Positions 155-41,172 of a DNA stretch of 43,623 nucleotides are shown here, piece by piece. The DNA is from a virus, in IMG/VR virus record IMGVR_UViG_3300005471_000028, positions 1-43,623 of that record; one strand, written 5' to 3'. The translations under genes were made by a program, and so were the position numbers. Position 1 is the first letter of the stretch. Each line of letters begins with the position of its first letter. The notes under the pieces were generated by a model. The model saw only the letters and a list, made by a program, of their open reading frames with translations, did not search any database and was not told the origin of the DNA.

Positions 155-231
155 GCGCCCGTAGCTCAGCTGGATAGAGCGGCAGCCTCCGGAGCTGTAG
201 GCCACAGGTTCGAATCCTGTCGGGCGCACCA
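155..231 (+). tRNA. tRNA-Arg (anticodon CCG)
   Basis: A full cloverleaf can be drawn. The acceptor GCGCCCG pairs perfectly with CGGGCGC, the D-stem is GCTC/GAGC, the anticodon stem is GCAGC/GCTGT with one G-U pair, the loop is CTCCGGA with CCG at 189-191, and the T-stem is ACAGG/CCTGT around TTCGAAT. The CCA end is encoded. It reads CGG codons. tRNA-Arg genes are frequent prophage attachment sites and phage-like genes begin within a few hundred bases, so it may mark an attachment boundary. No second copy of its 3' end was found further right. Confidence 0.95.
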
Positions 232-22466: not shown

Positions 22467-23152
22467 GCAGCCATCTCCTCGAGGTCGAGTAATCCCAACA
22501 GGTACGCCTCTTCGTCTTCGTTCGTTGTCCCGGTGGCCGTGACACGCCCGATGCGCGACCGCAGCATCGGACAGCCCCGCACCACCGCGCGTCCGTTGAC
22601 CACGTGAGCGTCGTCGGGCTCGGTGGTCGATCTGCCGCGGTAGTGCCGCCACGTCCCGTCGTCGCTCCAGGTGATTTCCGCGACGGGATCCCCCTCCGCG
22701 AGCACCTCGCCCACCGCGCTCACAGCGGCGACACCAGCACTGTTGATGAGCGCCGAGCCCGTGTGCGTCGTGGTCCCGATCGCCGCGGCCGTCGCGACGC
22801 CGGCGACGGCCGTGAGCGCCGTGCCGGTCTGCGTCGTGGTCCCGATCGCCGCGGTCGTCGCCACGCCAGCGACGGCCGTGAGCGACGACCCGGCGACGCT
22901 CACCGTGCCAATCGCGGCTGTCGCGGCGACGCCCGTGACGGCCTTCAGCGCCGTGCCTGTGTGTGTCGTGGTCCCGATCGCCGCGGTCGCCGCCACGCCA
23001 GTCGCCGTCGCGGTGGCGCCACCCGTGACACTCGCCGTCCCGACCGCACACGTGGCGCTCACGCCGATCGCCGCGATCCGCACCTCGATCGGATTGGTGA
23101 GCGCGATGTTGTTGGGGTTCGCTTGCCCCTGACGGAGATAGATGTCGGTCAT
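22463..23152 (-). CDS. Tandem-repeat beta protein of the head region
   Basis: The protein has 229 residues. Residues about 25-155 are five to six copies of a 22-residue repeat of the form GVAATAAIGTTTHTGTAL, giving near-perfect 66-base repeats in the DNA. Such alternating short-strand repeats form beta-solenoid-like fibres in other phage virion proteins. The C-terminal domain (AEITWSDDGTWRHYRGRSTT, HVVNGRAVVRGCP) is different and may anchor it. It overlaps both neighbours by ATGA. A head fibre or spike is a reasonable guess. Confidence 0.65.
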   Translation of the reverse strand: MTDIYLRQGQANPNNIALTNPIEVRIAAIGVSATCAVGTASVTGGATATATGVAATAAIGTTTHTGTALKAVTGVAATAAIGTVSVAGSSLTAVAGVATTAAIGTTTQTGTALTAVAGVATAAAIGTTTHTGSALINSAGVAAVSAVGEVLAEGDPVAEITWSDDGTWRHYRGRSTTEPDDAHVVNGRAVVRGCPMLRSRIGRVTATGTTNEDEEAYLLGLLDLEEMAA

Positions 23153-26217: not shown

Positions 26218-26403
26218 TTACGGTTTCCTCACGCGCAGGTACGGCCACGCCCCGATCGCCATCACGAGCAGCCCTGTCACGATGTTTGCGACGGGACGAG
26301 ACAGGGACGACAGCCCCACGTACAGCACGACAAACCCACCCACCATCGCGATGAGGTTGAGGTTCTCCAGGACCTCGCGCAGGACCGCGCGGAGCCTAAT
26401 CAC
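26218..26403 (-). CDS. Small two-helix membrane protein
   Basis: The protein has 61 residues from GTG 26403, which has GGAG five bases upstream; a longer form from GTG 26421 is possible. Helices are AMVGGFVVLYVGLSSL and IVTGLLVMAIGAWPYL, with a basic tail. It overlaps the end of the large terminase gene by eight bases and stops one base before the portal start. Small membrane proteins in this slot have no known function; holin-like is possible. Confidence 0.55.
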   Translation of the reverse strand: MIRLRAVLREVLENLNLIAMVGGFVVLYVGLSSLSRPVANIVTGLLVMAIGAWPYLRVRKP

Positions 26404-28255
26404 CAAGACTCCGCACGCCACGCGTCATGTAGACGCTGCTCGGTTCGAAGGCCGTCACCAGCATCGCCGCGACGCCGTCGACCAGCGCGACGCCGCCGTC
26501 GATCCGCTTGCGTTGCCCGATCTTGATCGGCCGGATCTCCCGCCAGTGGTTCTCTTCCTTCGCCATGTTGCCCATGCACATGTGCATGACGGGATTCCCG
26601 GTGTGCGCCACGTTCCGGCTGACGATGAGCGCTTCCACGGTCTTCGACGGCTCCGAGAGGTGCCGAAAACTCTGCGGGATCTCGGTGACCAGGTCGTCGC
26701 CGAAATGCCGGCGTAAGCGCGTGACGGCCGCCGTCGCCCCCGCCTGGTCGAACCCGATGTGCCGCACGCGGTACTGCTTCGAGACCTGACTGATGATGAA
26801 ATCCACGATCGCGTCGTGGTCGATGATGTCCCCCGGCGTCGAGGTGATGTGGCCGGCCTTCTCCCACTCGACGTACGGGACGTTGTCCTCCTGCGATCGC
26901 CGCACGAGCGTGTTGTGCGGCATCCAGAAGTAGGGCAACACGTCGATCGCGCGGTCCAGGGCGGGCGCGTCGTCCGGCCGTGGCACCTCGCGTTCGATCG
27001 GCCGCGGGAACACGAGGACCACCGACGAGAGGTCGATCTTGTCGGACAGGTCAATCCCGACGTAGCACTCGCGACCCACCAGCGACGCGCTCGAGACCGG
27101 ACCGGCACAGGCCGCCCACTGCTCGAGGGGAATCCAGACGTCGACCTGCTGCGTCCACTGACAAAAGTTCAGCCGTCGGACCGTGTTTCGCTCGGACGGC
27201 ATGGCGACCGCCACCTGGACCTCGTCGCGCAAGTACTGCCAGGGTATCGAGACCCCGAGATTCGGGTTGGCCTTCAGCCAGTGCGGCCCTTCGACTTTCC
27301 AATCGTCACAGTCCGGACAGTCGTCGGAGGGTTGTCGCTTGCCCGCCGCATGGCATCGATCGCACGCGTCGAGATGACAGACGAACGCAAACCACGATTC
27401 ATTGACGAGCGTGCCCTCGAGAATCTGGCAGGAGTGGTCGTAGTACTCGAAGCACACCGACTCGCGATTGAAGCCCGTGTTGGTCGGCAGGAACAGCAAC
27501 GCGTTCGGCCGGCCCTTGATCCCGGCGCGCATCTTCCCGACGAGTCCCCGGTTTGGATGCTCGTGGAGCTCCTCGATCACCGCGCCCTGCACGCGCTTAC
27601 CGGATTGGCTCCGGCTGTCGGACGAGATCGGCCGGATGAACGAGCCGGTCTCCTTGACCGCGAGGTTGTTGCCCGTTTCGGTGATGAGGGCGGTCAGGTC
27701 TGGCGAGGCGTGCACCATCTTCAGACAATCCGCGAACGGGATCAGGGCTTGTTCTTTCATCGCGCCGGCGCAGAACAACTGCGCGCCGCGCACGCCGCGG
27801 CGCACCAGCATGAAAATCAGGATCCCGGCGCCGAGCGGCGTCTTCCCACAGCCCTTCCCGCCTTGAAAGAACGCGATTCGGAAGCGCTGCCGCTCGCGGA
27901 GAGCCCCGGTTTTCTTGCTCACGTGGATCGCGAACCAGCCAAACAGCGACCCAACAATGAAGGCTTGAAAATTTGTGAGGACGAATGGCGTCCCGGCCTC
28001 TGGCGTCACATCGGCGTCGACTTCTTCGTCTTCGTCGGTGTCCGTCTCTTCGGGGAGCGTGAGGCAGGTGGCAAAGAAGTCGATCGCCTCCTGCGCCTCG
28101 AGCGGTTTCCAGATCAGGCCCTTCCGCTCGGCGTCCCGGAGATCATTGAGATGTCGTTGACACGCGAGAATGACCAGGCGCGCCGCCACGATTCGCCGCG
28201 CGACGACGTCGGTCGCGTAGCGAGTCGCCGGATCGAGCTGGGCCCTCTTCGTCAT
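26396..28255 (-). CDS. Terminase large subunit
   Basis: The protein has 619 residues from ATG 28255 (ATGA overlap with the small subunit). Walker A is GGKGCGKT at 132-139, Walker B AVIEEL at 225-230. The nuclease half has VGIDLSDKIDLSS from 399 and HIGFDQAGATAAVTRL further on. It is of the Terminase_1/YmfN type that packages HK97-like genomes. An unusual insertion at 298-316 carries C-x2-C and C-x2-C, a likely zinc knuckle (CDRC ... CPDC) between ATPase and nuclease lobes. Confidence 0.93.
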   Translation of the reverse strand: MTKRAQLDPATRYATDVVARRIVAARLVILACQRHLNDLRDAERKGLIWKPLEAQEAIDFFATCLTLPEETDTDEDEEVDADVTPEAGTPFVLTNFQAFIVGSLFGWFAIHVSKKTGALRERQRFRIAFFQGGKGCGKTPLGAGILIFMLVRRGVRGAQLFCAGAMKEQALIPFADCLKMVHASPDLTALITETGNNLAVKETGSFIRPISSDSRSQSGKRVQGAVIEELHEHPNRGLVGKMRAGIKGRPNALLFLPTNTGFNRESVCFEYYDHSCQILEGTLVNESWFAFVCHLDACDRCHAAGKRQPSDDCPDCDDWKVEGPHWLKANPNLGVSIPWQYLRDEVQVAVAMPSERNTVRRLNFCQWTQQVDVWIPLEQWAACAGPVSSASLVGRECYVGIDLSDKIDLSSVVLVFPRPIEREVPRPDDAPALDRAIDVLPYFWMPHNTLVRRSQEDNVPYVEWEKAGHITSTPGDIIDHDAIVDFIISQVSKQYRVRHIGFDQAGATAAVTRLRRHFGDDLVTEIPQSFRHLSEPSKTVEALIVSRNVAHTGNPVMHMCMGNMAKEENHWREIRPIKIGQRKRIDGGVALVDGVAAMLVTAFEPSSVYMTRGVRSLGD

Positions 28256-28770
28256 GCCCGGGACTTCGTGAACCGATCGAGCGGGTTCACCTTCGGAGCT
28301 TCGGTGGCGTAGAGCTCCTTGCCCATCGGAGCCAACCGGAACCGCGCCCGCGCGGCCTCGACGCGCTGCACCAGCCCGCGGTAGTCCGGCAGGAGCGGAT
28401 GCTTTTTCAACGCGCGATGCTCGATGCCGGCGTCGTCGACGTAGACGTGGACAAACGTCAGGCCGTCGCCGTCGATCTGGGTCCAGAGCCGGCGCATCCG
28501 GACGACCACTTCGCAGAGCTCGCGGAACGATTCCGCCGTCGCCGGCGTCAGCGTGCGCTGCGTCAGCGCGTGCGGGGCGTTCGCCGCCCACACCGCCGCT
28601 TCGGCCTCCAAGAGGTCGGTCGGGACCGGCACGGGCTCGACCGCGGCGATCACCGGCTCGGCGAACGGCAGGGCTCGATGGCTCGCGCCGCCGTCGATCG
28701 ACCGCAAGTGCCGATCTTTTGATTTCCGACCCGCGCCGACGCGCGCACCGCCGCTGCCGCGGCCGCCCAT
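28252..28770 (-). CDS. Terminase small subunit (P27-like)
   Basis: The protein has 172 residues. ATG 28770 is chosen because GAGGGG precedes it and because upstream reading to 28968 is the HNH gene in another frame. The start (GRGSGGARVGAGRKSKDRH) and the body (AVWAANAPHALTQRTLTPAT, SFRELCEVVVRMRRLW, HPLLPDYRGLVQRVEAARAR) match the P27 small terminase family, which recognises the packaging site. Overlap with the large subunit is ATGA. Confidence 0.88.
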   Translation of the reverse strand: MGGRGSGGARVGAGRKSKDRHLRSIDGGASHRALPFAEPVIAAVEPVPVPTDLLEAEAAVWAANAPHALTQRTLTPATAESFRELCEVVVRMRRLWTQIDGDGLTFVHVYVDDAGIEHRALKKHPLLPDYRGLVQRVEAARARFRLAPMGKELYATEAPKVNPLDRFTKSRA

Positions 28771-28783
28771 CGCTAACCGCCCC

Positions 28784-29251
28784 TCATATTTGGATTTGCG
28801 GAACTTTTGAAATCGCGATTTTCTGCGTGAGGGGCCCCGGGCGTGTCCGCTCGCGCTGCTGAAAACCTTTTCCCCCCCCCGGGCTGGGTCTGCTGCGGTC
28901 GCGTTCCTCCAGCCGGCGCTTGGCCGCGTGGCACGTGATGCACAGACTCTGCAGGTTGGCCGCCCCATCGGTGCCCCCGTACCGTTTGGGTTTGATGTGA
29001 TCGACTTGTTGCGCGGCGGTGACGCGTCGCTGTTGCACGCAGACGCTATGGACGGCGTGCGATTGCCCGTCTGCTCGCATGCCGCAGAGCGGGAACCGGC
29101 GGAGGAAGGCGTCGCGAACGCGTCGCCACGGGCGGCCGTAGGTTTCGGCGTCGCCCGCCTTTTGTACGCCGTACGCGGCCGCGCACGTATCGCAGCGCCC
29201 CTGCGTCACACGGACGCGGCAGCACCCCACGCACAACGTCATCTGGGGCAT
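28784..29251 (-). CDS. HNH endonuclease of the packaging region
   Basis: The protein has 155 residues from ATG 29251. Zinc pairs are CVGC and CDTC at the N-terminus. The active site reads VDHIKPKRYGGTDGAANLQS followed by LCITCHAAKRR. In cos phages with P27-type terminases an HNH protein encoded next to the terminase (HK97 gp74) is needed for DNA cleavage, and the location supports that role. The codons for SPGGGKG contain a run of nine Gs (28872-28880) in the C-terminal tail, after the catalytic part. Confidence 0.9.
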   Translation of the reverse strand: MPQMTLCVGCCRVRVTQGRCDTCAAAYGVQKAGDAETYGRPWRRVRDAFLRRFPLCGMRADGQSHAVHSVCVQQRRVTAAQQVDHIKPKRYGGTDGAANLQSLCITCHAAKRRLEERDRSRPSPGGGKGFQQRERTRPGPLTQKIAISKVPQIQI

Positions 29252-29259
29252 GTCGCCGC

Positions 29260-29442
29260 TCACGACTTCCGGGCGCGGCGCGCGAGCGCGGCGTCCATCT
29301 CGCGGCGGATATCCCACTCGGAGCGAGTCGACCAGCGGCGCTCGTGGTCGACGTACGCGCGACGCACCCGCTCCTCGAGCGTCTCTTCGCGCACTTTCTG
29401 CACGACGCTGGTCGCGACCGCGTCTTCAAACTGCGTGATCAC
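29260..29442 (-). CDS. Small helical hypothetical protein
   Basis: The protein has 60 residues from GTG 29442, which overlaps the upstream stop as GTGA. It is almost wholly helical and charged (QFEDAVATSVVQKVREETLE, RAYVDHERRWSTRSEWDIRR) with a basic end. No family. Its position just ahead of the HNH/terminase block is compatible with a packaging accessory. Longer reading to 29586 is the DUF3309-like gene in another frame. Confidence 0.55.
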   Translation of the reverse strand: MITQFEDAVATSVVQKVREETLEERVRRAYVDHERRWSTRSEWDIRREMDAALARRARKS

Positions 29443-29582
29443 AGCTTGCCGGCCACGAGCAGGATGATCAGGATCAGCAGGATGAGGCCGACGCCGCTCC
29501 CGCCGACGAGCGGACCCCCGGCGTAGAACCCGCCACCACCGAAGACAAGGAGCAGGATGATCAGGAGGACTAGGAGGTTCAT
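29439..29582 (-). CDS. DUF3309-like tiny membrane protein
   Basis: The protein has 47 residues and consists of two hydrophobic helices (LLVLLIILLLVFGGGGF and VGLILLILIILLVAGKL) separated by a Gly-rich turn with FYAGGPLVGG. This is the plan of DUF3309 proteins, which are common in Proteobacteria and soil prophages and of unknown function. Coupled to both neighbours by ATGA and GTGA. A holin-like role is conceivable; nothing demonstrates it. Confidence 0.65.
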   Translation of the reverse strand: MNLLVLLIILLLVFGGGGFYAGGPLVGGSGVGLILLILIILLVAGKL

Positions 29583-30184
29583 TCAAATATTCCGCTGGTC
29601 AGGTTCAGGATGTAATAGGCGACGGAGACGCGCAGGGTGTTGTCGTCGTGGCCTCCAGTGAAGTCCAAAGACACACCGTTATTGAAGCCGATCCAGAAGG
29701 ACACATTGGCAACGTCTGCGGTCAGACCGCCGAGATACCCCGCCGCTTTCGACATCGTCAACACGGTAGTCAGTAGATCGTTTTGCCCAGTCGCGAGGAT
29801 GGGATACGACTCTGACTGGCTCTCGGTCCAGAGCGCGTACGTGGCATTCGACACCCCAAGCCCAGAGGTGAAGTAGGCCCCAGCCCCGTCGACGTTCGTA
29901 TAGGCGCCGGCTTGTGCGTCCAAGGTGGCGATCACCACGTGCGGCCACAACATCCGATTCGTCCCCGGCGCTGGCAGGAGTGCTAGAGCCGTCGTCGGCA
30001 GCAAGAGGATCGCGGCGTTATCCAGCAGCACCGTCGCCTGATGGAGGATGGAGGCCGCCAACGCCGTCCCGGCATTCGCCGGCCCGAGCGCGCTATCCTG
30101 CGTCGGAATCGCACAGACGACCCGCCCGGCGGTATCGACGACGTGCACGCGTGACCCGCCTGCATAGACCAGCGACAGACTCAC
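29579..30184 (-). CDS. Tail fibre protein, shorter paralogue
   Basis: The protein has 201 residues from GTG 30184, with a G-rich ribosome site. The N-terminal 45 residues (SLSLVYAGGSRVHVVDTAGR, GPANAGTALAA) match those of the protein at 31205-32263, as do the DNA leader bases before the start. The rest is different: WPHVVIATLDAQAGAYTNVD, TYALWTESQSESYPILATGQ, SFWIGFNNGVSLDFTGGHDD. Shared N-terminus and divergent C-terminus are the pattern of alternative receptor-binding fibres. Confidence 0.65.
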   Translation of the reverse strand: MSLSLVYAGGSRVHVVDTAGRVVCAIPTQDSALGPANAGTALAASILHQATVLLDNAAILLLPTTALALLPAPGTNRMLWPHVVIATLDAQAGAYTNVDGAGAYFTSGLGVSNATYALWTESQSESYPILATGQNDLLTTVLTMSKAAGYLGGLTADVANVSFWIGFNNGVSLDFTGGHDDNTLRVSVAYYILNLTSGIFE

Positions 30185-30215
30185 GGCTGATTGCCCCCCA
30201 CGTGTACTGACACGA

Positions 30216-31208
30216 TCACATCCCGCCCCGACCCACGGAGCCCGCCGTCTGGATGTCGCCGTCGAGGGTCGGGAGCAGGGCGACGCCGATCGGCCAGGTG
30301 TTCGTGCCGTAGGGTTGGTCGTGGTCGCCCGCGGCGCTGTAGTACACCCGCCAGACGCCGCTCGCGATCTCGACGACATAGACGTTTGCTGTGTGATAGC
30401 GATCCCAGGCCCCCGGCACGCGCGACGGCGGGATCAGCACCCGCCCGCGTTGGAAGGGCCCGATCGGACTCCCCGACGCCGTCGCGTAGATTTGATACGG
30501 CTCGATCGCCTGCGTCCCGGCGTCATACAGCAGCCAGTAGGTCGATCCGATCTTCAGGAGCTGGTGCCCTTCGCACTGGAACGGATCCGTGGTGAGGATG
30601 TCGCCGGCGCCGCCCTTCGTCCACGCGATCCCGTCGGGCGACGTCGCGTAGCGGAAGCCGGGCAGAATCCGCAGGCCGTCGCGGTAGGCGTAAATCATCG
30701 TCCACGCCCCGCCCTCGTTGATCACGACGGGGAACTCCACCGAGTCGCCGTCCGTCCGCCCCTGCCCGGTCGGGGTGAGGATCGGGTTGCTGGCGTGCTT
30801 GGTGAAGGTCAGCCCGTCGGCGCTCGTCGCCAGCCCGCACTGGATCGTCGACCCGTTGATCCCCGAGTAGTACAGGTACCAGGTCCCGCCGGCGTAGACG
30901 ACCGACGCCATGCGTGCGTGGTCCTGATCCCAACTGCTGCCCCCGCCCTTCGTGAGCACCTGGCCGATGTAGGTCCAGGTGTTCGGGTCGGCGACCGGCG
31001 CGGTGAACCGCAGAATCGACATCTCGCCGAGTTGCACCGGCGCGGCCAAGCCGGACGCGTACATGATCAGCTGCGTCGCATCCGCCGGATCGATCACGAT
31101 TTGCTGGTCGAACACCTGCATCTCGTACGGCGACCCGACGCCACCGAGCGCGATGATCGGGTTGCCGGCATCGCGGCGCACGGCGCGATCGAAGCGGGGG
31201 ACGCTCAT
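30216..31208 (-). CDS. GH43-like five-bladed propeller, probable polysaccharide-active protein
   Basis: The protein has 330 residues and starts in an ATGA overlap with the neighbouring fibre gene. Blade-like repeats are visible: QQIVIDPADATQLIMYASGL, ARMASVVYAGGTWYLYYSGI, GGAWTMIYAYRDGLRI, QLLKIGSTYWLLYDAGTQ, NVYVVEIASGVWRVYYS. This is the pattern of GH43/GH32/GH130-type propellers that cut or bind plant- or capsule-type glycans. No signal peptide is seen, so a virion-borne depolymerase is more likely than a secreted enzyme. Catalytic acids cannot be assigned by eye. Confidence 0.7.
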   Translation of the reverse strand: MSVPRFDRAVRRDAGNPIIALGGVGSPYEMQVFDQQIVIDPADATQLIMYASGLAAPVQLGEMSILRFTAPVADPNTWTYIGQVLTKGGGSSWDQDHARMASVVYAGGTWYLYYSGINGSTIQCGLATSADGLTFTKHASNPILTPTGQGRTDGDSVEFPVVINEGGAWTMIYAYRDGLRILPGFRYATSPDGIAWTKGGAGDILTTDPFQCEGHQLLKIGSTYWLLYDAGTQAIEPYQIYATASGSPIGPFQRGRVLIPPSRVPGAWDRYHTANVYVVEIASGVWRVYYSAAGDHDQPYGTNTWPIGVALLPTLDGDIQTAGSVGRGGM

Positions 31209-32263
31209 CCCATGATCCCCGCGGTGATGTTGTAGAAGTTGAACTCGGCGCTGCCTCCTGCGCCGAGCTCGACGACGACGAGCTCGTTGAAGCCGAGCGT
31301 GCTCTGATAATCGGCGGCCAGCCCGCCACGTGTCGCGCCGGCATTCACATTCGCGTGCACGGCGGGCCCTTCCAGGCTGGCGTCATTGAGCGACAACGAG
31401 CAGTACGCGAGCAGGGCCAACTCGACCCAGCCGCCGGTCGCAAACACCTGCGGCTCGCCCGTCACAAAGGAGAACCGGTGTGGCCCGCCGACGCCGTTGT
31501 TCCACTCCCGCCAGACCGCCGTCCCGTAAGCGTGGAGCGTCGCCGCTTCGTTGCGTCCCAGGAGGCGCAGCGTTTGGTTGCAGGCACTCCAGACAAACCG
31601 CTTCGCGATGCTGTCCTCAGTGACGTTGCTCCCGCTGGCCCGAAGCGTCCCCATCCAGCGCCGCGTCGTCGCCCCGCTCTTGACGGGAATCCCGTCCTGC
31701 AGCGCGAGGGCATCGGCGCGCACGAAGTCCGTTGTCCAGGCCGCCGACAGTTCCAGGGTCAGGGTTCCGGCGTTGTCGTAGAGGAAGATGTCGTAGTTTT
31801 TCCCGCTCGTCACCGTGAGCGCCAAGCTGCGCTCCGTCGTCGAATAGAGCCGCCACCGCGTGCCGTCATAGAGCGAGACGAGCTTGCCGGAGTACGGGGT
31901 CAGGTAGATCGCCCCCTGTGCGGTCCGGTCGACGGTGCTCACCGGCACACCGCTTTCCGTCGTCGGCCGCAGCTGGCAGATCGACGGCAGCATCTGCCCG
32001 AGCAGGCGTTGCAGGGTGACTTTGTTCTCGACGGGGGTGCCACTCGGGTCGTCCACCGTCAGCAGCAAATCCTCGAGGGCGGGGACGGAGATTTCCGCGA
32101 GCCCCGGGACGTCGAGCACGGCGCCGCCACCCGCGGCGAACGCCGTTCCGGCATTGGCTGGGCCGACGGGCGTGTCCTGCGCCGCGAGTGAACAGACGAT
32201 CCGTCCAGCCGCATCCACCACGTGCACTAACGACCCGCCGGCATAGACGAGCGACAGACTCAC
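31205..32263 (-). CDS. Tail fibre protein, longer paralogue
   Basis: The protein has 352 residues with GTG start 32263, followed by the same N-terminal anchor as the 29579-30184 protein (SLSLVYAGGSLVHVVDAAGR, GPANAGTAFAA). It then has an extended linker (LLLTVDDPSGTPVENKVTLQ) and beta-rich tip domains (LVSLYDGTRWRLYSTTERSL, IYLTPYSG, SFVTGEPQVFATGGWVELAL, AEFNFYNITAGI). Likely a fibre that binds the host surface, with the GH43-like gene next to it. Confidence 0.7.
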   Translation of the reverse strand: MSLSLVYAGGSLVHVVDAAGRIVCSLAAQDTPVGPANAGTAFAAGGGAVLDVPGLAEISVPALEDLLLTVDDPSGTPVENKVTLQRLLGQMLPSICQLRPTTESGVPVSTVDRTAQGAIYLTPYSGKLVSLYDGTRWRLYSTTERSLALTVTSGKNYDIFLYDNAGTLTLELSAAWTTDFVRADALALQDGIPVKSGATTRRWMGTLRASGSNVTEDSIAKRFVWSACNQTLRLLGRNEAATLHAYGTAVWREWNNGVGGPHRFSFVTGEPQVFATGGWVELALLAYCSLSLNDASLEGPAVHANVNAGATRGGLAADYQSTLGFNELVVVELGAGGSAEFNFYNITAGIMG

Positions 32264-33499: not shown

Positions 33500-33916
33500 T
33501 CAGGAGCGCAGATGCTGGGCGCGCGGGTCGAGGCGCTGCATCGCCTGCAGCATCGCCTGCAGCGCCATCCAGTCCTCTTTCACGTACTCGTAGGAGACGG
33601 CATGGCCCCAGGCTTGGTGCAGTAAGCGGTTGACCTCGTCCCACGACGGCGGGAGCTCGGCGGCGAGCTCGGGGTGTTCGCGAGCAAACGCCGCCCAGTC
33701 CACCTGCTCGAAGGTGGGAAAGCGTTCGGTGCAGATGCACTGCCGGCGCCGATGCACCTGGTCGAGGAGGATCGCGCCGCGGGAGCGCACGACGCTCGAC
33801 TCGGAGGCGGCGCAGAACGGGCAGGCCATCTTCAAGGCGCGGCTGGCGTGCCGGATGCGGAGGGTGGTCGGGAGCGGGAGGAGACGCGTGCGCGGAGCGG
33901 GGGGACTGCTATCCAT
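33500..33916 (-). CDS. NrdR-like zinc-ribbon protein without ATP-cone
   Basis: The protein has 138 residues from ATG 33916, with AGAAGG upstream; an inner ATG at 33829 has no site. Around residues 30-65 it carries CPFCAASESSVVRSRGAILL and HRRRQCICTERFPTFE, very like the N-terminal zinc ribbon of the nucleotide-reductase repressor NrdR. The ATP-cone that should follow is replaced by a different helical part (REHPELAAELPPSWDEVN, VSYEYVKEDWMALQAMLQAM). It may bind DNA without the nucleotide sensing of NrdR. Confidence 0.65.
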   Translation of the reverse strand: MDSSPPAPRTRLLPLPTTLRIRHASRALKMACPFCAASESSVVRSRGAILLDQVHRRRQCICTERFPTFEQVDWAAFAREHPELAAELPPSWDEVNRLLHQAWGHAVSYEYVKEDWMALQAMLQAMQRLDPRAQHLRS

Positions 33917-33988
33917 GGCGCCTGCCTTCTGGTTGGGCCGTGTTACCGTTTCCCAACTCCAGACGAGCACGCGCATTCCAGACCATTC

Positions 33989-35156: not shown

Positions 35157-38100
35157 TCACTGCACACTCGGCGTCCCCGCCGCATCGAACGTCACGCGCC
35201 GCGCGCCCACCTGGACGCCGCCCGGGATCGCCGTCACGAGCTCCGGCGCGATCGCCGCGGCGCCCGGCTGCAGCACGACGAGATACGTGGCATCCGCCGT
35301 CGCCGCGCGCACCTCGAGCCGATGCGTGGTGGGCGTCAGGTCCGTATCGGAGACGGTGTCATCGAGGCTGACGAGCGTCTGCGACGTTACCGCGGTCACG
35401 ACGAGTCGTGACACGCCAACGGTGGTCGTCGCACGCGAGCCGGCAATCACCCACGGGCCCGCCTGGTGCGCATGGAAGGCGAGCGCCGAGCTCGGCTCGG
35501 GGCCCGTCACCCGCGCCCGCAGGATGCTCGTCCCGTTGGGTAATGTGACCACCGCTTCGATGAAGCGTGCGAGCGCCGTCGGCCCGTCGCCGCGGTTGTA
35601 GGCATCGGTGAGATCCGCCAGCGTCCAGATGGCGAGCGGGCCATCGAACGTCGCCAGAATCTTTTCGGTGCCCCAGTACCCGCCGCCGCCGGTGTAGTTC
35701 GCGTCCCAGAAGGTCCGATAGAGCAGCGTGTTGCCGCGCCAGCTACGCCCGTCATACACCTGCGGATTACCGCCCCACCCGCCAGGCCCCTTCCACTGCC
35801 CGGCGTTGACGAGGAGATAGTCGTTCCCGCGGTGAATGGCGATGTGGCCCGCGCCCGCCGCACGATTCGCGTGCCCGCCGAGAAACTGCGCGCCGGCGCG
35901 CCACGACGTCCAGGTCGCGCCGTCGTCCCACCCGGTGCGCGTCACGACGCGGCCGGTGCCCGCGGCGCGGAACGTCAGCGGGAAGACGCCGGCGGCCTGA
36001 TAGTCGATCGGCGCGACGGTTGTCCCCCAGAGCAGCGATCGCGCGGCCGGGTACGCCATCGGCGCGTTCGCGTTCATGGTCTGCAGGAACTGCTGCGCGT
36101 AGCCCGCATAGGTCGGACTACAGAGGCCGGTCAGCATCACCAGGAGCCCTTGATCCATGATCCCGACGTAATCGCCGGCGTAGTCGGCCTCGTCAGGGAA
36201 GCGCCAGCGGTCAGGTTTCCGATTCGCGATGAGTGACCGCAGGATCTTGTCGGCCATGCCGCTCGCGAGGTCCTCGCCGGTGACGCTTCGCACCGCGGCC
36301 GCGTACTGCAGCAGCCGCGCGAAATGATTGACCCCGTAGGTGGCACCCTCGACGGCTTCCCCACTCTGAAACACGCCGCTCGCGAACGCGGTCTCGACAC
36401 TCGTCCACCGCTGGCGCATCACGTCCGCGATCTCCTGGCCGCGCGGGTTCGTCCCGATCGAGCCCAGACCCCAGAGCCCGAAGCCAAGGAGATGCCCGCC
36501 GAAGTAGTTGGACATCGCCGGGCCGTCGGCATCGAGCACGCGCCCGGCCGCGTAGAGGTCGAACCACGCGTTCCCGCGCGCGATCATCGCGGCTCGCTCC
36601 GTTGCGGTGAAGGCGGGGCCGCACCAGCTGTACGCGAGCGCGAGACTCACGACCAGGTTGCGCGTCGGGTAGCCGCTGTCGGGCAGGATGGCGTCGACCC
36701 CGAGCGCGAGCATCACGGCCACGATCTGCTGCGCGTGGGTCGCATAGCGCCCATCGTGCGACGCCTGGTACGCCAGGCAGAGCACGACCACAGGGCTCAC
36801 GAAGCCGTCACCCGCATAGCCGTAGTCCGGCCCGCGCAGCAGCTGCGCGTCGGCCGCGGCCTTCCATTGCAGCCACAGCGGATAGTCAGGCGAGCTCGCG
36901 ACCGTGGCCGCGGCGAGTGTGACGGGATCGATCCAGAGCAGCCGCCCCGCGACCGGTGGCGGCACGACGACCGCCGTCGGCTGTCCGAACAGATCGGCGG
37001 CATCGCCCGCGCCGATCGCGCCGCGGTCCCCTGGCGTCGCCGGCGTGTAGGCCGTCCGATAGCGCGCGAGCACGTCGAAGACCGACACGCTCCGCTGCCA
37101 GATCGCGGCCTCGTCGATGCGATAAACCAGATCGGGCACGCCGGCGAGTGCCCAGGGTCCGGTGACGTCCCGCGCGCCGGGCGGCGTCGCGACCACGCCG
37201 GCGCCGTAGCGCGGCGTCGCGCCGGCGAGCGGGATATCCCACACGTTCTCGTCAGCGACCGCGACGGATCCCGGATCCCCGCTGATGAGCGCGCCGCCGA
37301 GTGAGCCAGCGGTCGCACTGAAGCCGCGCACGGCGTTCTTCTGAACGACGGAGGCCTTCGCGCCGCCCGTCAGGTAGAGCAACGGCGCGGTGTAGCCGAG
37401 GCTCCCGCCGTCGATCGTGTTGCGCTCGAAGCGCAGGCCTGTCTCGCCCTGGTAGCTCCAGAACATCCCGCCGAAGTCCGACGTCCCGCCGATGTACGCG
37501 AACACGTTGTGGTGAATGTTCGTGTTCGATGCCCACGAGCGCCAAAGGTCATGGCCGCCGTGGTCGACGACCAGGTTGTAGCGGAACTCGCCGCCGAACG
37601 ATTGCACCGGCCAGGAGCCGTTGCGCACCACGTTGTGCTCGGCGAGCAGCCCACTCGACTCCGACGCGAGCAGCGTGAACCCCTGGCTCCAACCGCCGTT
37701 GTACGTGTGATGCAGATAGTTCCCGACGACAGTCGTGGCGGTCGCGCGGCCGAGACTCAGCACGGCGCGTGGCCCGATCAGCACGTTGCTGTCAGCCGGT
37801 GTGCGCCCGCCGATCGTCCAGCCGCTCGCGTTGGTGAAGCTGACGGCACCGCCGCCGGCGTTGTTGCCCGCGAACACTTTCGCGCCGATCGTCGTGCCAC
37901 CGAGATCGAGGAGCGGCGACGCCGCGGGGTCTGCCGAGACGTAGGTCACCCAATCGTTCTCGCGAAACTCGCTCGCGCGAATCGTGAACGGCGCGGTGCC
38001 ATTGACGGCCAGGCGCATCGGGCCGCTCGCCTCGTGCAGCACGCGCTCGAGCGCGATCGCGCCGGTGGTCGTCACATCGACGCCCCATCCGAATCCGCCG

Positions 38101-39002
38101 ACGCCGAAGAGCGCCGCATCACGGATCGTGACGGCGCCGGCGTAGCCCGGAGTCGCCAGTACCCGGAAGCCGTTCCCGCGCACCGTGACATCGGTCCAGT
38201 CGAGCGGCGTCGTGCCACTCAGCACCAGGTCGGCCGCGAGCGTCACCGTCCGCGCGTGGACCGGAGCGGCGTCAATATTTATTGACACCCCCGCCGGGTC
38301 ACCGGGAATCACGCGGCCGCCGGTGCCTGTGAACGACACCGTGATCACATGGCGGCCGACCGCGAGCCCGGCCGGCAGACGCAGTTCCCACAGATTGTTG
38401 TTGGCCGGGTCCGGTCGGATCGTGCCGACCGCGACGCCATCAACCAGGAACGTCAACGCCTGGTCGGGGCAGACGTACGGCGGATGGCCCGGCGGACACG
38501 TCCATTCGTTCGGGTCCTGTGTCTGACCGAAGAAGCGCAACGGTTGCCCCGCGGTGAAGTGCATCCCCTTCGCCGGCGCATTGAGCCGCGCGAGGTAGCC
38601 AGCGGGCGCGATCGAGACTTCCGGCGTCAGGTCGATCAGTCCGAGGACTGGGGACGGCGGAGGTGGTGGCGGAGGAGGCGGTGGTGGCGGCGGCGGTGGT
38701 GGAGGCGGCGGTGGTGGCGGTGGCGGGGGTGGTGGCGGTGGCAGCGGCGGTGGTTGACAGACTGCGGTCAGCTTCTGCGTCGTCGGCGTCGCCGTCACAA
38801 CCCAGCCCCAGGCCTCCAGCTGCACCTGGCGCGGCGTCTTCGGGATCGGGTTGGTGCCGACCATCTTCGTGCCGGCCGGGCGCGTCAGCGCACCGGTGGC
38901 GTCCGGACGGTCATACGTGCAGACCGGAAGCACCTGCGCGCTGGCGCTGGCGCCGACGAGAAGTACCGCCGCCGCCAGGCACCACGCGCGCAGGCTGCGC
39001 AT
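35157..39002 (-). CDS. Large secreted polysaccharide-active protein: beta-helix plus heparinase/alginate-lyase-like half
   Basis: The protein has 1281 residues and starts at ATG 39002 in a TAATG overlap with the coiled-coil gene. Residues 1-22 form a Sec signal peptide ending ASA, with Gln next. Residues 84-116 include 29 consecutive prolines. A small sandwich (to about 235) precedes a right-handed beta-helix (about 240-690; many N/G turns, FRYNLVVDHGGHDLWRS, LRFERNTIDGGSLGYT). Residues about 700-1020 look like an alpha/alpha toroid (YFGGHLLGFGLWGLGSIG near 832), and about 1025-1281 like a beta-sandwich (GGHANRAAGAGHIAIHRG near 1042), the plan of heparinase II/III-type and alginate lyases. 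It probably depolymerises extracellular glycan after export. No catalytic residue is proven. A passenger of the host or a virion spike are the alternatives. Confidence 0.75.
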   Translation of the reverse strand: MRSLRAWCLAAAVLLVGASASAQVLPVCTYDRPDATGALTRPAGTKMVGTNPIPKTPRQVQLEAWGWVVTATPTTQKLTAVCQPPPLPPPPPPPPPPPPPPPPPPPPPPPPPPPPPSPVLGLIDLTPEVSIAPAGYLARLNAPAKGMHFTAGQPLRFFGQTQDPNEWTCPPGHPPYVCPDQALTFLVDGVAVGTIRPDPANNNLWELRLPAGLAVGRHVITVSFTGTGGRVIPGDPAGVSINIDAAPVHARTVTLAADLVLSGTTPLDWTDVTVRGNGFRVLATPGYAGAVTIRDAALFGVGGFGWGVDVTTTGAIALERVLHEASGPMRLAVNGTAPFTIRASEFRENDWVTYVSADPAASPLLDLGGTTIGAKVFAGNNAGGGAVSFTNASGWTIGGRTPADSNVLIGPRAVLSLGRATATTVVGNYLHHTYNGGWSQGFTLLASESSGLLAEHNVVRNGSWPVQSFGGEFRYNLVVDHGGHDLWRSWASNTNIHHNVFAYIGGTSDFGGMFWSYQGETGLRFERNTIDGGSLGYTAPLLYLTGGAKASVVQKNAVRGFSATAGSLGGALISGDPGSVAVADENVWDIPLAGATPRYGAGVVATPPGARDVTGPWALAGVPDLVYRIDEAAIWQRSVSVFDVLARYRTAYTPATPGDRGAIGAGDAADLFGQPTAVVVPPPVAGRLLWIDPVTLAAATVASSPDYPLWLQWKAAADAQLLRGPDYGYAGDGFVSPVVVLCLAYQASHDGRYATHAQQIVAVMLALGVDAILPDSGYPTRNLVVSLALAYSWCGPAFTATERAAMIARGNAWFDLYAAGRVLDADGPAMSNYFGGHLLGFGLWGLGSIGTNPRGQEIADVMRQRWTSVETAFASGVFQSGEAVEGATYGVNHFARLLQYAAAVRSVTGEDLASGMADKILRSLIANRKPDRWRFPDEADYAGDYVGIMDQGLLVMLTGLCSPTYAGYAQQFLQTMNANAPMAYPAARSLLWGTTVAPIDYQAAGVFPLTFRAAGTGRVVTRTGWDDGATWTSWRAGAQFLGGHANRAAGAGHIAIHRGNDYLLVNAGQWKGPGGWGGNPQVYDGRSWRGNTLLYRTFWDANYTGGGGYWGTEKILATFDGPLAIWTLADLTDAYNRGDGPTALARFIEAVVTLPNGTSILRARVTGPEPSSALAFHAHQAGPWVIAGSRATTTVGVSRLVVTAVTSQTLVSLDDTVSDTDLTPTTHRLEVRAATADATYLVVLQPGAAAIAPELVTAIPGGVQVGARRVTFDAAGTPSVQ

Positions 39003-39343
39003 TAGATGCTCGGATCGACCGGAGGATCGACAGGGGCGCCGTCGCTGTTCAACGTCGCGTTGATGTCATCGATCTGCGCGTCGAGCGAATCCAGGTCGGC
39101 CTGGGTCACGGCGGTGCCCGCGGCCAGCTGCGCCTTGAGGTCGGCCACTTCGGCCTGCAGCGCCTCGACCTTGGCGATCCCGTTCGCCTTGAGCGCCGCG
39201 ACGCCGTCCTTGACTTCGACGAGCTCGTCTTTCAATTCCTGAACTGATGCCATGAGGTGTGCTCCCTGATCGAGTAACTGCGCGAGCCGCGCGAGGATCA
39301 GATCGATCTTCACGTCGTCGTGCATGTGGAGGTGAATGTCCAT
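39002..39343 (-). CDS. Coiled-coil phage protein
   Basis: The protein has 113 residues from ATG 39343; a GTG three bases earlier is possible. It is one long helix with heptads (MASVQELKDELVEVKDGVAA, LKANGIAKVEALQAEVADLK) and an acidic Pro-rich C-terminus (APVDPPVDPSI). Similar coiled coils lie in the lysis or fibre regions of many phages; function is unknown. It is translationally coupled to the large secreted enzyme. Confidence 0.65.
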   Translation of the reverse strand: MDIHLHMHDDVKIDLILARLAQLLDQGAHLMASVQELKDELVEVKDGVAALKANGIAKVEALQAEVADLKAQLAAGTAVTQADLDSLDAQIDDINATLNSDGAPVDPPVDPSI

Positions 39344-39396
39344 CACCGGGTAGTGTCTGGCGGCGACGGACGGGAGGAGGGTTACAGGTAGCGGGG

Positions 39397-40911: not shown

Positions 40912-41172
40912 TCATCGTTCAGTCCGGGAAATAACGAGCAGGCCGCCCGCCGTTCGGTGTGGGCCCAGACCGAGATCGCGGTCCCCATACATCAGGGTGA
41001 AACTCGGCACCACGCACTGACAGCGTCGATAGTGCCGGTCGCACGTCGTGCACCACTTCATCGCGCACTCGGCGCGCCCCGCTTTCAGCCGGGCATCGCA
41101 ATCGGGACACCGGCAGGTCTCCAGCGGCAAGCGGCACACGTCGCACGAGAGGCCGAGTCCGGCGTCGACCAT
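40912..41172 (-). CDS. Cysteine-rich zinc-binding protein
   Basis: The protein has 86 residues. Clusters CDVCRLPLETCRCPDC and CTTCDRHYRRCQC supply at least eight cysteines for two zinc sites. The C-terminus is less ordered. ATG 41172 has GAGG nine bases upstream. It is downstream of the double-HTH gene and could modulate it or bind nucleic acid. Confidence 0.6.
   Translation of the reverse strand: MVDAGLGLSCDVCRLPLETCRCPDCDARLKAGRAECAMKWCTTCDRHYRRCQCVVPSFTLMYGDRDLGLGPHRTAGGLLVISRTER

Follow-up and report, generated by a model that had tools for sequence, protein, structure and literature searches.

A minus-strand gene at positions 35157-39002 of the IMG/VR virus record IMGVR_UViG_3300005471_000028 (43,623 bases, analysed whole and hereafter called the window) encodes a 1281-residue protein with a signal-peptide-like N-terminus and a C-terminal half of the heparinase II/III superfamily in which catalytic residues are present. 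The gene is located among the late genes of a soil phage. We read its product as a phage-encoded, Sec-exported, soluble protein of the polysaccharide-lyase type, and we give this reading about an even chance. A preliminary description of the same DNA had proposed an exported glycan-degrading enzyme built from four elements: a Sec signal peptide, a run of 29 prolines, a beta-helix, and a heparinase-like toroid plus sandwich. Its length of 1281 residues was right. The strand is corrected here to minus, which carries the open reading frame (ORF); stops occur throughout the plus-strand reading.

The C-terminal 592 residues provide the clearest assignment. Sequence homology confirmed that they belong to the heparinase II/III superfamily, for which the toroid plus sandwich that had been proposed is predicted. 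They scored 172.6 bits against a profile of 32 chromosomal relatives built without the window protein, and the best of 500 shuffles scored 10.1; the 32 sequences had been gathered with a profile containing the window sequence, which is a mild bias, and one protein is present twice among them. Searched in six frames, 297 Acidobacteriota and 398 Pseudomonadota genomes yielded relatives at E-values from 1e-17 to 1e-7, and blastp gave 5e-18. The relatives match PF07940/PF16332, and one of them (L120) passes the Pfam cut-off for the heparinase II/III C-terminal family (PF07940). Searched against PDB, a five-row profile (A3) found heparinase II (1e-44), oligo-alginate lyase (1e-12) and heparinase III (2e-9), and the same profile matched 41 of 396 Acidobacteriota genomes. 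When taken alone, the C-terminal 592 residues reached no Pfam cut-off, and the whole protein gave no PHROG match and no meaningful phmmer match in PDB. Placement in heparinase II proper (polysaccharide lyase family 21, PL21) is not supported: a Tyr follows the Asn (NYF), the metal site is lost, and the NCBIfam HepB score is 13.4 against a cut-off of 600.

Members of this superfamily catalyse with an Asn or His, a Tyr and a His, which in heparinase II are His202, Tyr257 and His406 (PMC12088678, PMC7904915). Alignment with the relatives placed Asn832, Tyr889 and His1044 of the window protein at these positions (Table 1), where the His406 numbering for His1044 uses the chain numbering plus a presumed 23-residue offset. 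Glu885 is also kept, the same residue being found in 27 of the 32 relatives. By this alignment, the protein has kept the acid/base residues of its core and has changed at the metal site and at further conserved positions.

The N-terminal part carries the features of a Sec-exported protein. Residues 1-22 show n-, h- and c-regions with an AxA site in a rule-based scan, and the predicted signal peptide, MRSLRAWCLAAAVLLVGASASA followed by Q after the cleavage site, received the top score among all ORFs in the window, in agreement with the preliminary description. Neither a lipobox nor a transmembrane anchor was seen in the 1281-residue sequence. The signal peptide is followed by a small two-Cys domain and then by a proline run of exactly the 29 residues described before. 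Within this run, CCA accounts for 12 of the 29 proline codons, compared with 23 of 257 in ten other phage genes, suggesting that the run does not simply follow the customary proline codons of the phage.

This N-terminal arrangement recurs in a second phage. Among 22 records related through the terminase large subunit (TerL), one (IMGVR_UViG_3300018083_000033, hereafter G009; TerL identity 64%) matched the whole-protein query, and the match fell in the N-terminal region. There, a 96-residue coiled-coil ORF is followed by a 269-residue protein (L114:1435-2241) with a signal peptide, a stretch resembling Fn3, a run of 13 prolines and a CxY...C domain; aligned with window residues 24-85, this domain is 32% identical and retains both Cys. 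When 49 other records, many of which are fragments, were searched with a two-sequence profile of this domain, no match appeared. Chromosomal matches of the G009 protein were set aside; they were mostly short and lay at the Fn3/polyproline stretch. The layout of coiled-coil gene, signal peptide and polyproline is thus seen twice in related phages; in G009 the domains are ordered differently and the enzyme is missing. On two cases, this is suggestive of a modular slot for exported proteins before the terminase. As a separate observation, G009 encodes a second signal-peptide protein of 230 residues (L114:2509-3201, plus strand; ...AEAQDPVALRFYIVPKAGTG...), located a short distance downstream from the polyproline protein, and this second protein has no phage match.

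Several lines of evidence place the gene in a phage. The window contains the tailed-phage genes for terminase, portal, protease, capsid and tape measure, and downstream of the 1281-residue gene the same strand carries HNH, terminase small subunit (TerS), TerL, portal, head protease, major head protein, head-tail adaptor and tape measure. In the DNA itself, the letters TAATG combine the stop of a coiled-coil gene with the start codon, an overlap that supports the operon placement given in the preliminary description, and a relative of this coiled-coil gene is present in the phage contig L013. The guanine-cytosine content at the three codon positions (0.68/0.56/0.86) resembles that of other coding genes of the window. 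Core phage genes have codon-usage distances of 0.060-0.104, and the value for this gene, 0.092, falls among them, which argues against a very recent acquisition from elsewhere unless the source shared the bias. Scans for promoters and terminators gave counts at the level of chance.

The relatives of TerL are mostly IMG/VR contigs, with identities up to 83%, and the best match in sequenced species genomes reaches 43%. On either side of the interval in question, genes match TerL-related phages (for example, 40912-41172 is 84% identical to L006), and HNH-TerS-TerL is found in many of these phages. The contents of the interval between the block of helix-turn-helix and small genes and HNH-TerS vary: L006 has tail-fibre-like genes, as does the pre-terminase slot of L004, and G009 has methyltransferase-like and other accessory genes. 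These differing contents lead us to read the interval as a variable cargo slot.

Direct searches of IMG/VR, bacterial genome contigs, phage records and plasmids found no relatives of the toroid or the beta-helix; the contig scans depend on exact matches to short peptides and would let distant relatives escape, and the A3 alignment is too divergent for use in such a scan. Four chromosomal relatives were read in context, and none lies in a recognisable prophage, as judged from ORF beginnings only. According to the preliminary description, its reading would fail if the gene were found mainly in host chromosomes outside prophages. This applies by half: every relative detected for the enzyme domain lies in a chromosome, while the gene itself is flanked by phage genes.

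Between the proline run and the toroid, we distinguish two regions from their sequence. Residues 119-245 are likely Ig-like. Residues 246-680 probably form a right-handed beta-helix, which their rhythm and composition resemble; the Pfam Beta_helix model gave E 0.24 with the whole protein and 0.019 with the domain alone, both below cut-off. A regular expression for an asparagine ladder performed no better than on shuffles, and no relatives of this region were found in 199 Acidobacteriota and 349 Pseudomonadota genomes sampled. Of the four elements proposed at the outset, the beta-helix is the only one that we could not confirm, although it stays plausible.

If the protein is indeed an exported polysaccharide-lyase-type protein, it would be produced late through translational coupling at TAATG, and it would be exported to the periplasm and the outside, or released at lysis. 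The glycan-active part, which the proline rod would hold at a distance from the N-terminal domain, may cleave a uronic-acid exopolysaccharide or capsule of the host or biofilm by beta-elimination. The beta-helix may act on this glycan too, by binding or by cutting it. Progeny phage would thereby be freed, or neighbouring cells exposed.

A number of results weigh against this reading. The signal peptide was called by a rule-based scan, and no close relative shows the full architecture maintained. Single-sequence AlphaFold models, a check proposed in the preliminary description, delivered the expected order of secondary structure and not the fold: the C-terminal half has about 300 all-helix residues followed by mostly strand in a model whose predicted local distance difference test score (pLDDT) of 39 is too poor for a fold, and the model of the beta-helix candidate (pLDDT 35) is unusable as one. 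Three conserved metal-site positions are substituted (Asn1046, Ala1048 and Gly1090), and the near-invariant Asp792 (31 of 31), Arg1149 (32 of 32) and Asp1163 (31 of 32) are replaced by Ser, Glu and Ala, respectively. In the PL35 enzyme GAGase II, Ala mutants of the metal residues His403, Asp405, Asp421 and His457 were fully or largely inactive (PMC12088678); we matched these residues to window columns by motif, not by structure, and the column equivalent to Asp421 is too variable to judge. Therefore, while the export signal and the heparinase-type domain of the preliminary description stand, its term "glycan-degrading" is something we infer for a protein that lacks a metal site essential in a studied relative. 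The missing ligands suggest either a metal-independent lyase or an activity that has decayed into binding. The latter outcome would make the protein an exported, catalytically dead binder with a heparinase fold, serving as a glycan-binding surface or as a decoy that blocks the adsorption of competing phages or holds lysogens in the matrix. The six replacements, the inactivation of GAGase II by single mutations at its metal site and the enzyme-free exported protein of G009 all fit such a binder. Nevertheless, Asn832, Glu885, Tyr889 and His1044 are all kept, as one would not expect if the active site were idle, and in L121, the nearest of the chromosomal relatives, the metal site is partly altered too, with Asn replacing the HN His. 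A few chromosomal relatives likewise depart from HxHxD/HN, and the site is common in the superfamily rather than strictly defining. We regard the dead binder as rather doubtful.

The N-terminus bears on another alternative, in which the protein is a virion-associated depolymerase, a tail spike or decoration whose N-terminus is merely signal-like and whose beta-helix trimerises as in other spikes. The probable beta-helix would suit this role, tail-fibre-like genes occupy the same slot in L004 and L006, and two nearby genes (29579-30379 and 31205-32263) have a common N-terminal module and look fibre- or decoration-like. By contrast, the protein has the strongest signal peptide in the window, with a clean AxA site; the sole related N-terminal module, that of G009, also comes after a signal peptide; and we saw neither a PHROG structural match nor a fibre N-terminal anchor. 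The presence in G009 of a signal-peptide/polyproline protein without the enzyme favours exported cargo over a virion spike, which we consider unlikely. It is also conceivable that a host gene, or a join in the metagenome assembly, came to lie beside phage genes by chance, since every detectable relative of the enzyme domain is in a bacterial genome, none is in the sampled phage or plasmid records, and TerL relatives lack the enzyme gene. However, the start/stop overlap with a phage-type coiled-coil gene, the match of both flanks to TerL-related phages, the phage-like codon usage and the recurrence of the N-terminal module in another phage make this very improbable.

Table 1. Positions of the features of the 1281-residue gene and of neighbouring genes in the window.
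Feature	Position	Strand	Basis
Whole gene, 1281 residues, ATG start	35157..39002	-	ORF reading and codon-position guanine-cytosine content
Sec-type signal peptide, residues 1-22, AxA cleavage site	38937..39002	-	Rule-based scan
Small two-Cys domain (CxY...P.G...WGW...C), residues 24-85	38748..38933	-	Related to domain of phage G009
29 consecutive prolines, residues 88-116, mixed CCA/CCG/CCT/CCC codons	38655..38741	-	Direct count
Probable Ig-like linker domain, residues 119-245	38268..38648	-	Big_3_5 E 0.034, below cut-off
Probable right-handed beta-helix, residues 246-680	36963..38267	-	Sub-threshold Pfam Beta_helix
Alpha/alpha toroid, heparinase II/III superfamily, residues 690-1000	36003..36935	-	Sequence homology; boundary approximate
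Asn832, catalytic Asn position, 27/30 in relatives	36507..36509	-	Alignment
Tyr889, catalytic Tyr position, 28/32 in relatives, with Glu885-Gly886	36336..36338	-	Alignment
Beta-sandwich, heparinase II/III superfamily, residues 1001-1281	35160..36002	-	Sequence homology
His1044, equivalent of heparinase II His406, 30/32 in relatives	35871..35873	-	Alignment
Asn1046 and Ala1048, replacing metal-site His (30/32) and Asp (28/32) of HxHxD	35859..35867	-	Alignment
Gly1090, replacing metal-site His of HN motif (26/32)	35733..35735	-	Alignment
Coiled-coil gene (114 residues), upstream; stop overlaps start codon of the 1281-residue gene	39002..39346	-	Read directly in DNA
GH43-like protein, same slot, no signal peptide detected	30216..31208	-	PF04616 E 7e-8, just above cut-off
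HNH endonuclease and TerS, closing the variable cargo slot	28252..29317	-	
TerL, true start probably near 28252	26396..28591	-	

Other genes of the slot and its surroundings deserve a brief description. The two fibre-like genes named above have the common N-terminal stretch SLSLVYAGGS.VHVVD.AGR.VC in front of differing bodies (both on the minus strand), as would a module carried by exchangeable decoration- or fibre-like proteins. Between them lies the GH43-like propeller protein, with weak similarity to beta-1,2-mannosidase models and three weak phage matches only. In the pre-terminase slot of related soil phages, we noticed an apparent Ku-type DNA end-binding protein (MARATWKG...), encoded on the minus strand at L002:6473-7306 and near position 1 of L013; the L002 gene is on the other strand, and the L013 gene comes after a coiled-coil gene related to that of the window. 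In the late region of the window, 33500-33976 (minus strand) encodes a zinc ribbon of the NrdR type (PF22811, E 2e-11) but no other part of NrdR. Elsewhere, an imperfect tandem repeat (22747-23065, 66/132 bases) directly precedes the head protease domain. A tRNA-Arg (CCG) gene at 155-231 (plus strand), near the left record end, may serve the phage or mark an attachment site; none of the window ORFs tested was recognised as an integrase.

Compared with known systems, the window protein resembles heparinase II (PL21, PDB 2FUQ/3E7J) and the rest of the superfamily (PL12, PL15, PL17, PL35, PL39) in its toroid and sandwich, as predicted by profile homology, and in the catalytic Asn, Tyr and first His of HxH; multi-domain relatives also exist. 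It differs in its low identity to the relatives used (15-26%), in the replaced metal-site His, Asp and His, in being phage-encoded, and in having a polyproline rod and a probable beta-helix attached. Its closest detectable C-terminal relatives are heparinase-like proteins of Acidobacteriota (L121, with 26% identity, L119 and L120) and Pseudomonadota (L122). Unlike the window protein, these are chromosomal and keep HxHxD in four of four cases and the HN His in three of four. Phage depolymerases are known in virion-bound and soluble forms, including lyase mechanisms and soluble forms released at lysis (PMC5380687), and they share with the proposed role of the window protein the phage-borne cutting of glycans. 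The well-studied ones are mostly tail spikes, however, and that review does not mention signal peptides. No phage depolymerase with a heparinase II/III toroid was found in the phage records searched, nor, within the limits of our search, was such a toroid behind a signal peptide found in phage records or the literature. The soil viral chitosanase V-Csn (PMC9485262) is likewise a carbohydrate-active accessory gene on a soil virus, and its product has been shown to be active; it differs in its fold and substrate, and in being a single small enzyme.

A bolder proposal is that these soil phages keep a dedicated slot for exported cargo, in which a coiled-coil gene precedes a signal peptide, a polyproline rod and exchangeable end domains, and that here the slot holds a metal-independent branch of heparinase II/III lyases, secreted by the infected cell to strip exopolysaccharide before or during lysis. 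In this complete form we put it forward tentatively, as a proposal that probably does not hold. A protein with its metal site lost and its catalytic residues kept offers a sharp test of whether the metal site is required throughout the superfamily. If our reading of the window protein as an exported polysaccharide-lyase-type protein is true, the infected or lysogenic cell would itself secrete a glycan-active factor, which would bear on escape from biofilms and on the effects of soil viruses on extracellular carbon.

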